From assembly GCF_036077095.1 (NCBI RefSeq), contig NZ_CP107960.1, forward strand, positions 868,001 to 932,000: a stretch of DNA of 64,000 bases, written 5' to 3'. The notes below the pieces were generated by a model. The model was not told the origin of the DNA. It did no database searches and saw only the letters and a program-made list of their open reading frames with translations. Each line of letters begins with the position of its first letter. The first letter of the stretch is position 1. Shown one piece after another: positions 52,345 through 54,435 of this stretch. This DNA comes from Streptomyces sp. NBC_00376 (GTDB taxonomy: Bacteria; Actinomycetota; Actinomycetes; Streptomycetales; Streptomycetaceae). A program made the position numbers and the translations under genes.

Positions 52345-53247
52345 TCAGCCCAGCAGCGCGCTCAAGGAACCCTCGGCGGTGTGCTGTTCGCGACGCATTG
52401 CACCCCGGGCCAGATGTACCAGCTCTTCTGGCATGAGGCCGGTGAGCGTGCGGCGAAAATGCGCGATGAGGTCGTTCGTGGCTCCGGTCAACGCTGCGTC
52501 GTCGTTGGGCCTGGCGGGCAGTCCGTCGCCGTTCAGCAGGAGTGCTTCGAGAACGGCGTACAAGTGGGCGGAGCCGGCCTCGCGGACCGTGAACGAGAGG
52601 TGAGCGGACGAGCTTCCCCCGGTGGCTTCGGCCTCATGCGCGAACCCCCGCGGCACGTAGAGGACTTCGCCCTGACGCAGAACCACGTCGAGCAGCGGAT
52701 CCCCCGGGTCGCCGTCCACGCGCTCGGGCTGCCAGTTCCCGTCGGGCGGTCCTGGATACACCCGCCACCGCTTCGAGCCGTGTATCTGAACGGCCAGCAC
52801 GTCGGCGTCGTCGCGGTGCACAGGACGGCCCTGCGTCCCCGGCGGGGTGAGGAAGAAGAACGCCTCCACCTGACGTTGAAAACACTCCGCGAGCCCATCG
52901 GCCAGTTCCCGCACGCCTGCGTGCCACTGGTCGACGTACCGCAGAAGGAGCGTGGCTCCCTCCTCGCCGATCAATCGGCGCACCGCCCCGGCATCCACGT
53001 AGCGGTTGTCGATCCCGCCCAGGACGACACGGGGGGAACAGTAACGCTCCTCCGGTACCGGACCGTCCTCGTGCACAAGCGTCGCGTACGGGGTGGTGAG
53101 GAGACCTGCGTCCAGGATCCTGTCCAGCTCGGCGACCGTCAGCGCCTCCGTCAGGGGGGTGCGGGGATGTAGTACGGCGGGTGTGCGGCGCCACAGGGTG
53201 CGATGGAACACCTGCTCGTCGCCCACATATCTTGCAAGCGGGCCCAT
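52345..53247 (-). CDS. JmjC/cupin-4 oxygenase 1
   Basis: 300-aa 2-oxoglutarate/Fe(II) oxygenase of the JmjC (cupin-4, ribosomal-oxygenase-like) type. Metal triad His144-x-Asp146 in PVHRDDADVLAVQIHGSKRW and His204 in EVLYVPRGFAHEAEA. The Lys of GSKRW is the usual 2-oxoglutarate ligand. Bacterial relatives hydroxylate protein side chains. Start at 53247 with GGAG upstream, 34 bases after the stop of its paralogue. Third gene of the operon begun by the small peptide at 54435. Substrate proposed: that peptide. Confidence 0.88.
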   Translation of the reverse strand: MGPLARYVGDEQVFHRTLWRRTPAVLHPRTPLTEALTVAELDRILDAGLLTTPYATLVHEDGPVPEERYCSPRVVLGGIDNRYVDAGAVRRLIGEEGATLLLRYVDQWHAGVRELADGLAECFQRQVEAFFFLTPPGTQGRPVHRDDADVLAVQIHGSKRWRVYPGPPDGNWQPERVDGDPGDPLLDVVLRQGEVLYVPRGFAHEAEATGGSSSAHLSFTVREAGSAHLYAVLEALLLNGDGLPARPNDDAALTGATNDLIAHFRRTLTGLMPEELVHLARGAMRREQHTAEGSLSALLG

Positions 53248-53281
53248 CGTTGCCTCTCCATGTTCCATGCCGTCGGCTTGA

Positions 53282-54151
53282 TCAGACGGTCTGACGGTTG
53301 CTGTACGCACGCGGTCTTGCCCGGCCGATGACATCGTCCGGGGTGACCGCGTCGAGCCGTGCGCTGAGATGGTCCAGGAGTTCGGCCGCGGTGCGCAGCA
53401 GGGCGTCGTCGTCCAGCGGACGGCCCGGCAGAGTCAGGCCGTCGACGATCCCCGTCAGCAGAGCGGTGCGCAGATGCTCCGCGCCGGCTTCTCTCACCAC
53501 CACTGTCAGATGAGCCGACGAGGCGTCGCCCACCGCTGTGGCGGTGTGCGCGAAACCTCTCGGCACATACAACACTTCACCGGCCTCAAGGACCGTGTCC
53601 AGCAGCGGCGCCCCCGGATTCTCCTCGCGGACCGGCGCCCAGTCGCCGTCGGCCGGACCCGCGTACACCTGCCAGTGCTTGGCACCGCTGAGCTGGATCG
53701 CCAGCAGGTCTCCGTCGTCCCGATGCACCGGACCCCGGCGGCCGGGCCGGCTCAGGAAGAAGAACGCCTCGACGAGCCGGCCGAGCCGCTCGGCAACGCC
53801 CCTCGTGAGTTCCCGCACCGGGGGATGCCACTGGTCGACGTAACGGAACTGCAGGGTCGCCCGTTCTTCATCGATCAGTCGTCGGACCGCCGCCGCGTCA
53901 ACGTACCCCTGGACAGGGTTCCCGGTGATGACGCGCATCGGACAGAAACGCTCGTCGGCGATGCTCCCCTGCGCGGTGTACAGGCCGACATACGGAACGC
54001 GCAGCAGCCCCGCGTCGAGGAGCGCGTCCACGTCCGAGAGTGTCAGCACCTCCAGCGGCGGGTCCTGCGGCCGCAGGAGCACCGGTTCCTTCCGCCAATA
54101 CGTACCCAGGAGCTGCTCCACGTTCGGTACGCACCGTTCCAGCCAGTCCAT
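53282..54151 (-). CDS. JmjC/cupin-4 oxygenase 2
   Basis: 289-aa paralogue of the next gene, same fold. Iron ligands His143-x-Asp145 (PVHRDDGDLLAIQLSGAKHW) and His202 (EVLYVPRGFAHTATA) are intact, as is the C-terminal helical winged-helix-like part. ATG 54151 follows GGAGAGGGAC. A strong hairpin separates it from the peptide gene 93 bases upstream. Two such enzymes in tandem suggest two hydroxylations on one substrate or a heterodimer. Confidence 0.88.
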   Translation of the reverse strand: MDWLERCVPNVEQLLGTYWRKEPVLLRPQDPPLEVLTLSDVDALLDAGLLRVPYVGLYTAQGSIADERFCPMRVITGNPVQGYVDAAAVRRLIDEERATLQFRYVDQWHPPVRELTRGVAERLGRLVEAFFFLSRPGRRGPVHRDDGDLLAIQLSGAKHWQVYAGPADGDWAPVREENPGAPLLDTVLEAGEVLYVPRGFAHTATAVGDASSAHLTVVVREAGAEHLRTALLTGIVDGLTLPGRPLDDDALLRTAAELLDHLSARLDAVTPDDVIGRARPRAYSNRQTV

Positions 54152-54170
54152 CGTTCCGTCCCTCTCCAAG

Positions 54171-54202
54171 GGGACCCGCCGGTGTGAGCACCGGCGGGTC
54201 CC
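54171..54202 (-). terminator. Hairpin between peptide and oxygenase genes
   Basis: Perfect 14-bp stem (54171-54184 with 54189-54202, loop tgag), no T-tract. In RiPP operons a partial terminator here keeps precursor mRNA in excess over enzyme mRNA. Confidence 0.7.
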
Positions 54203-54243
54203 GGACGCGCTTGCGCGCACCCGCGTGCGCGTCGGTCAGCCGA

Positions 54244-54435
54244 TCAGATGACGTCGGGGTAGCAGTCCCCGCACCCGGCCTCGATCTTCTGGTCCGAGGT
54301 CGGGGACTCCGCGGCATGCCCGACGGACGGCACGAAGAACGCCCCTCCGGCAACGGCGAGCGCCGCCACGCTCAGCGCGGCACGCTTGGAGATCTCCGCA
54401 CGCTTCAACGGCTCTACGGCCTGGGAATACGACAT
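54244..54435 (-). CDS. Small secreted Cys-containing peptide, candidate RiPP precursor
   Basis: 63-aa peptide. Residues 1-18 are soluble (MSYSQAVEPLKRAEISKR), 19-42 form a signal or membrane helix ending VGHAAE, and the last 20 are polar with EAGCGDCYPDVI at the C-terminus. ATG 54435 has GGGAG 6 bases upstream. It precedes two JmjC oxygenase genes on the same strand, as precursors precede their enzymes. Likely mature part: from about Glu43, with Cys54, Cys57, Asp and Pro as possible hydroxylation or cross-link sites. I know no described family with this sequence. Confidence 0.78.
   Translation of the reverse strand: MSYSQAVEPLKRAEISKRAALSVAALAVAGGAFFVPSVGHAAESPTSDQKIEAGCGDCYPDVI

Follow-up and report, generated by a model that had tools for sequence, protein, structure and literature searches.

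Three consecutive genes of Streptomyces sp. NBC_00376 (genome of 10.04 Mb in 3 contigs) raise the question of whether a pair of iron-dependent JmjC oxygenases can be dedicated to one small peptide encoded next to them. The genes lie on the minus strand at positions 52345–54435 of the 64,000-nucleotide stretch analyzed here (hereafter, the window). A preliminary description, made from the letters of the window, had read them as a system akin to those producing ribosomally synthesized and post-translationally modified peptides (RiPPs), and comparison with related loci strongly supports this reading of the sequence. We consider it likely that the three genes form a minimal mobile RiPP-type system, in which the core of a precursor bearing a leader for the general secretory (Sec) pathway would be oxidized by the two JmjC enzymes, exported, and released. 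The grounds are a dedicated precursor, its constant pairing with the enzymes, conserved active-site residues, a predicted fold, cassette-like DNA homology, and kinship with JmjC genes of other RiPP clusters. Collectively, these observations point to a peptide product that is made on the ribosome and belongs to a kind not yet described.

A precursor with an invariant C-terminal core

The precursor gene (54244–54435, minus strand) encodes 63 amino acids ending in KIEAGCGDCYPDVI; coordinates, strand and C-terminus are as first described. Pfam gives no match for the peptide and NCBIfam holds no model for it, the best score being 13.7 bits to a family with a cut-off of 250. A protein search with a 15-row precursor profile, in which scoring was limited to the 7984 candidates sharing most words, yielded 37 related precursors. 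We aligned the window peptide with 33 of these (n = 34, including P0034, a fragment of 41 amino acids), leaving out P0001, P0002, P0004, and P0005, which are 86–97% identical to it. Exactly two Cys are present in all 34 aligned precursors, both within the last 18 residues, with a spacing of 2 residues in 31 cases, 5 in 2 cases, and 6 in 1 case. The residue at position −3 is invariably Asp and the final residue is Ile (31) or Met (3), the last three residues reading DVI (29), DVM (3), or DAI (2). Variation is greater directly after the second Cys, where Tyr (21) gives way to His (5), Phe (3), Pro (3), Glu (1), or Gln (1). In the window, this core reads CGDCYPDVI (residues 55–63; 54247–54273, minus strand).

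The preliminary description had also noticed a signal-like N-terminus. By a simple rule, the N-terminal half of all 34 precursors holds a hydrophobic stretch and a small-x-Ala site, most of them with a charged start, which gives the leader the appearance of a Sec signal peptide. A rule-based scan delimits the putative leader of the window peptide to residues 1–41 (54313–54435, minus strand), with an A-x-A type site between GHA and AES. Within the hydrophobic segment, V23, A27, G31, F34, and P36 are invariant in the alignment. When weak matches to the precursor profile were fetched and inspected by eye, 12 out of 13 fell on the signal-peptide-like starts of longer, exported-looking proteins, and the remaining one was equivocal. 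Codon-position counts between precursors were too divergent or too few for a clean coding test and are not relied on.

Two JmjC oxygenases of the PF08007 family

The precursor is followed by JmjC oxygenase A (289 amino acids; 53282–54151, minus strand) and JmjC oxygenase B (300 amino acids; 52345–53247, minus strand). The start of B was set at 53247 according to its ribosome site, judged by eye, and not at the longer mechanical open reading frame (ORF) start; a purine-rich stretch is visible before each of the three starts, as had been claimed. Both tandem ORFs match the Pfam family JmjC_2 (PF08007), with scores of 75.4 and 58.7 bits (cut-off, 22), and both retain the complete HxD...H metal triad, numbered as in the preliminary description (His143/Asp145/His202 in A and His144/Asp146/His204 in B). 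The triad and Lys158 of A align with the His, Asp, His, and Lys of human MINA53, and we take the aligned Lys to be the residue binding 2-oxoglutarate (2OG). NCBIfam holds no model for B and gives one 13-bit match, far below cut-off, for A. No signal sequence was seen by eye on either enzyme.

The solved folds closest to the enzymes are those of ribosomal oxygenases. The ribosomal oxygenases NO66, MINA53, and YcfD carry a C-terminal winged-helix domain after the dimerization helices; such a domain is absent from the model of A, in which the predicted elements end at the helix of residues 271–281 and no further domain follows. A and B are probably the products of one old duplication. The nearest named relatives of A, at 94–97% identity, are from Streptomyces; a recent phage origin of A was considered and rejected, there being 0 matches in 50,697 phage records. 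Five residues (D148, R125, E128, W171, and R220) are near-invariant in the clade related to A and B and rare in 17 rows of remote JmjC proteins, and R220 is a candidate for holding the C-terminal carboxylate of a substrate.

The peptide and the enzyme pair occur together

We searched 295 genomes of the genus with a profile of 14 A/B proteins and a separate profile of 15 precursors; these genome searches score only the candidates from a fast first pass in each genome. An adjacent A+B pair, with both members above 430 bits, is present in 7 genomes (next best match, 330 bits), and the precursor profile exceeds 60 bits in exactly the same 7 (next match, 28.9 bits). The precursor is thus found in 7 out of 7 genomes with the pair and in 0 of the remaining 288, a co-occurrence on account of which we reject the notion that it is a chance ORF. 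At the lenient threshold of E 0.01 or better, some match to the precursor profile is seen in 136 of the 295 genomes.

Beyond this collection, 4 of 394 genomes in a class-wide sample, from 1 of 137 genera, had matches at E 1e-45, which added two genomes of the genus with the A+B pair, one of them carrying two cassettes. A family-level sample yielded matches in 26 of 150 genomes, of which 19 lack the pair; the pair was present in four genomes belonging to the Kitasatospora genus. Altogether, 20 distinct cassettes from Streptomyces, Kitasatospora, and Nocardia could be compared (the window, L001–L011, G019, G149, G151, G547, two in G641, G770, and G778; G046, G060, G075, G738, and G758 repeat named loci and were excluded). 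A, B, and the precursor are encoded in 20 out of 20, one Nocardia species (L011) having the full set. In L010 (about 5.8 kb), the precursor homologue has no stop codon and its reading frame continues past the usual end. The preliminary description had named homologous oxygenase pairs without the peptide in other genomes as a refuting condition; none of the 20 pairs fits it.

Some loci have several precursor copies, namely two at L006 (K. griseola), three at L007 (K. cheerisanensis), and two in G151, and one genome, G641, carries two different whole cassettes, at 4.81 Mb and 8.99 Mb of C1. Linear Streptomyces plasmids, too, encode A and B (7 records); for three S. atratus records and for NBC_00048, the precursor was also observed.

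Cassette boundaries, intergenic hairpin, and neighbors

The mobile island suggested earlier was right in substance. DNA homology between the window and relatives with other flanks is confined to the cassette, so that the three genes, some 2.3 kb in all, appear to move together. In comparisons with such relatives (L002, L003, L005, L035, and L168), the edges of homology fall at about 52326 and 54650, the approximate extent assigned to the putative cassette, and against L129 at 52276 and 54622; overall, homology stops at about 52276–52342 and 54593–54650. The left flank of the window is common only to L001/L122, which represent one genome. An apparent 420-bp insert between the precursor and A in L001 is a scaffold gap of Ns.

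A strong predicted hairpin (54170–54203, minus strand) separates the precursor gene from that of A. The gap in the window folds at −56.7 kcal/mol, compared with −43.9 ± 3.7 kcal/mol for 60 shuffles. Folding was possible for 19 of 21 loci (L001 was left out for its Ns and L010 for its missing stop), and in 11 of these 19, several of which are close relatives, the intergenic stretch is more than 2 standard deviations more stable than single-base shuffles. Hairpins placed between precursor and enzyme genes commonly serve to keep precursor output above that of the enzyme, and the one observed here is a possible attenuator favoring the precursor transcript.

Neighborhoods were compared through GC-biased (guanine-plus-cytosine-biased) ORFs of at least 80 amino acids and gene clusters present in at least 4 locus ids; rarer partners are possible. 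Within this scope, no gene for a transporter, a protease, an immunity protein, or a RiPP recognition element (RRE) recurs beside the cassette, consistent with the lack of adjacent maturation and export genes noted at the outset. A leader that acts as a Sec signal peptide would account for this absence. The main recurrent neighbor, not found in the window, is a LuxR/GerE-type regulator (8 of 19 distinct loci and one plasmid), the GerE domain of which was checked in L006 and L169. A P450-looking gene, recognized by eye, lies 3–7 kb from the cassette at five distinct loci (L006, L007, L125, L126, and L128), at varying distance and strand, and possibly reflects mostly shared Kitasatospora synteny.

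On the left, the cassette adjoins part of a conserved coding frame (51875–52270, plus strand), which has no Pfam match, is broken off at the cassette start, and is 73–86% identical to its six best plasmid matches; a KdpD-like kinase is encoded beside it (48925–51444). On the right, a Dyp-type peroxidase is followed by an encapsulin (Linocin_M18) at 54609–57499 on the plus strand, with pieces of a 6-phosphogluconate dehydrogenase, probably a decayed gene, upstream in two frames.

Related JmjC genes in other peptide clusters

Kinship provides a second line of support for the RiPP-like reading, since related JmjC genes (200–345 bits) sit in recognizable RiPP clusters. L116 and L117 contain two YcaO genes, TfuA, a nitroreductase, and thiazole/oxazole-modified microcin (TOMM) leader-binding domains, with Cys-rich precursors ending CCI (the enzymes were checked in L117), and L170 likewise is a thiazole-type cluster (YcaO/nitroreductase/leader-binding) with a JmjC gene of this clade. 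In L151 and L156, LanB is encoded, with or without LanC seen, and precursors end TTI and CDCI. L118 encodes an StsB radical SAM enzyme (673 bits; cut-off, 625) together with StsA-like precursors that end SVI and EVI, the second of which scores 41.4 bits against a cut-off of 42; this StsA/StsB-like sactipeptide cluster (3179–5160 and 7673–8614 of the locus) also includes a PqqD-like protein, an ABC transporter, and the JmjC gene. A C39 peptidase transporter with condensation and adenylation domains accompanies precursors ending ACI and NCI in L139 (and, by similarity, L152), and a leader similar to this type belongs to a precursor ending CVI in L134. At many of L014–L030 and at L135, L141, L143, L144, L146, L155, and L162, a P450-like protein of 351 amino acids and a single JmjC enzyme are encoded with a 27-residue precursor ending HVI or HLI, of the type MKMIKALVKKFKKDEDLANHAWVLHVI; one such P450 weakly matches ApyO, a family of RiPP P450s (43 bits; cut-off, 525). 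Precursors ending GGLEVI (L119 and L157) and RPFCI (L050/L154, opposite strand) are likewise near related JmjC genes.

The recognized precursors associated with these genes mostly end in Ile, which suggests that the JmjC clade may read or modify the C-terminus. The pattern was first seen under filters favoring or admitting hydrophobic ends; in a recount without a filter on the end, covering 35 locus ids (34 distinct, L012 and L158 being one place), Ile is the final residue of 15 of 38 small ORFs on the same strand; control DNA gave 1 of 21 and the opposite strand 5 of 50 (Fisher test against the pooled 6 of 71, p = 0.00017). Where the JmjC genes are more remote (ten loci), Ile terminates 0 of 16 small ORFs, and the precursor-like ones end NEA, SNA, NIQ, or YVP. 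At L130, L131, L132, L149, L150, L163, and L164, such remote genes, often two in a row, lie beside short precursors ending NEA or SNA (e.g., PMVIGVINEA), which look free of a signal peptide.

Proposed pathway and alternatives

The cassette brings together a dedicated encoded precursor, with leader and conserved core, and the adjacent enzymes, as expected of a RiPP system, and the paired iron enzymes very probably alter the tail of the precursor before its release. We infer that the peptide is the substrate and, further, where and how it is oxidized, its export by Sec, and its final function. In the proposed pathway, the 63-residue precursor would have a Sec signal peptide as its leader and C-x2-C-x-P-D-V-I as its core; A and B, as cytosolic Fe(II)/2OG enzymes that probably recognize the C-terminal Ile or Met, would each oxidize the core before export; and the modified precursor would leave by Sec, with signal peptidase releasing a peptide of about 20–24 residues. 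Given the enzyme fold, side-chain hydroxylation of the tail, at one site per enzyme, would be the simplest chemistry. The main alternative would be a Cys-derived cross-link, which fits two Cys and two enzymes.

Several points weigh against this pathway. The modification, expression, and export of the peptide are all predictions from sequence, the Sec assignment relies on simple rules, and the conservation of the hydrophobic segment may be due to its role as a signal peptide alone. Unlike in bufferin systems, no partner protein is encoded in the cassette to hold the precursor in the cytosol until it is modified. As for recognition of the C-terminus, the excess of Ile is weak without the seven P450-type ORFs (p = 0.024), one thiazole-type precursor of a plasmid locus ends in Val, and 20 of the 35 loci have no Ile-ending candidate by the filter, among them L116 and L117, the CCI precursors of which were found by pairwise comparison.

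Tentatively, the proposal can be extended to a distinct RiPP class, in which two JmjC proteins, its only enzymes, would each act on one invariant Cys (or else the DVI tail) of a peptide exported by Sec, and to a JmjC clade that would read the C-terminal Ile as a portable tag and would thereby have been recruited into at least 6 RiPP settings (this cassette and P450, YcaO thiazole, LanB lanthipeptide, sactipeptide, and C39/double-Gly-leader clusters). With regard to function, the patchy distribution and plasmid carriage of the cassette, the several precursor copies at three loci, and the LuxR-type regulator beside some cassettes would suit a bacteriocin or a signaling peptide, an outcome that we hold to be plausible, if short of probable, considering that neither an immunity gene nor a transporter gene recurs at the compared loci.

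A thioether macrocycle of Cys-Tyr (or Cys-X) type is an unlikely product of the two JmjC enzymes; this would be the chemistry of Xia et al. 2025 and would make the class already known or nearly so. In PMC12636437, the first Cys-Tyr cross-link by a 2OG enzyme is attributed to that study, which is also among references 40–45 given for JmjC homologues in RiPP-like contexts in PMC12710340; judged by its title and one citing sentence, it concerns a 2OG enzyme in a RiPP system. The window core does contain Cys and Tyr (CGDCY), with two Cys for two enzymes, but Tyr follows the second Cys in just 21 of 34 precursors. Since another residue takes this place in the other 13, a Cys-Tyr bond cannot be the general chemistry and was rejected as such. 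Also doubtful is a secreted metal-binding peptide with two Cys and one Asp, the JmjC counterpart of the bufferins made by multinuclear non-heme iron-dependent oxidative enzymes (MNIOs): the putative Sec-type leader and invariant Cys pair are as in bufferins (PMC12452194), but the cassette includes no metal gene or metal-responsive regulator, and its recurrent neighbor is the LuxR/GerE-type regulator. Finally, although ribosomal-oxygenase folds are the closest among solved structures, it is very improbable that the pair hydroxylates a ribosomal or other cell protein, with the peptide an unrelated small secreted protein or sensor sharing the cassette, in view of the co-occurrence of precursor and pair, the invariant core, the related JmjC genes in RiPP clusters, and the end of A at helix 271–281.

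Relation to known systems

No description of this precursor family was found in the literature searched, which covers few subscription journals, and a prior description is possible; the paper of Xia et al. 2025 may overlap with the system in the window. JmjC tailoring of RiPPs as such is already known from BipG and PbsQ, and PMC12710340 states, in one sentence, that bacterial JmjC homologues occur in RiPP-like contexts. If our reading is true, the cassette represents a compact three-gene RiPP pathway without an RRE, protease, or transporter of its own. It would also add a further enzyme family, beside MNIOs, working on precursors with Sec signals, which are rare among bacterial RiPPs and of which the use in the natural host had been shown only for bufferins, according to PMC12452194. 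The frequent C-terminal Ile of JmjC-associated precursors may offer a handle for substrate discovery and for moving the modification to other peptides.

With the ribosomal oxygenases NO66, MINA53, and YcfD, A and B have in common the PF08007-type fold and the HxD...H triad, as well as the Lys aligned with that of MINA53; they differ in their size of 289–300 amino acids, in the end of the A model without a further C-terminal domain, and in having a small peptide as genomic partner. P450 RiPPs such as atropopeptides (PMC11450843) are resembled by the related JmjC genes that adjoin a P450-like protein and a 27-residue precursor, whereas the window cassette has no P450; a word-start search of the text of the atropopeptide paper found no mention of oxygenase, cupin, or ketoglutarate. 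Bufferins and other MNIO RiPPs, as presented in PMC12452194, resemble the window system in their Cys-containing core, their adjacent oxidative non-heme iron enzyme, and a Sec-type leader like the one predicted here, but the enzymes here are JmjC proteins of PF08007 and not MNIOs, and the cassette is free of a partner protein gene.

Closest in enzymology are the biphenomycin-type clusters. BipG is a JmjC/cupin-like RiPP hydroxylase (PMC12707348), PbsQ is a RiPP hydroxylase, and BpmG is proposed as one (PMC12257519). Like A and B, these are JmjC-type Fe(II)/2OG proteins associated with a RiPP precursor, BipG and PbsQ acting on ornithine. There, however, the JmjC protein shares the tailoring with several other enzymes (an MNIO, an arginase, and a radical SAM enzyme), whereas in the window cassette two JmjC proteins are the only enzymes and the precursor has a signal-peptide-like leader.
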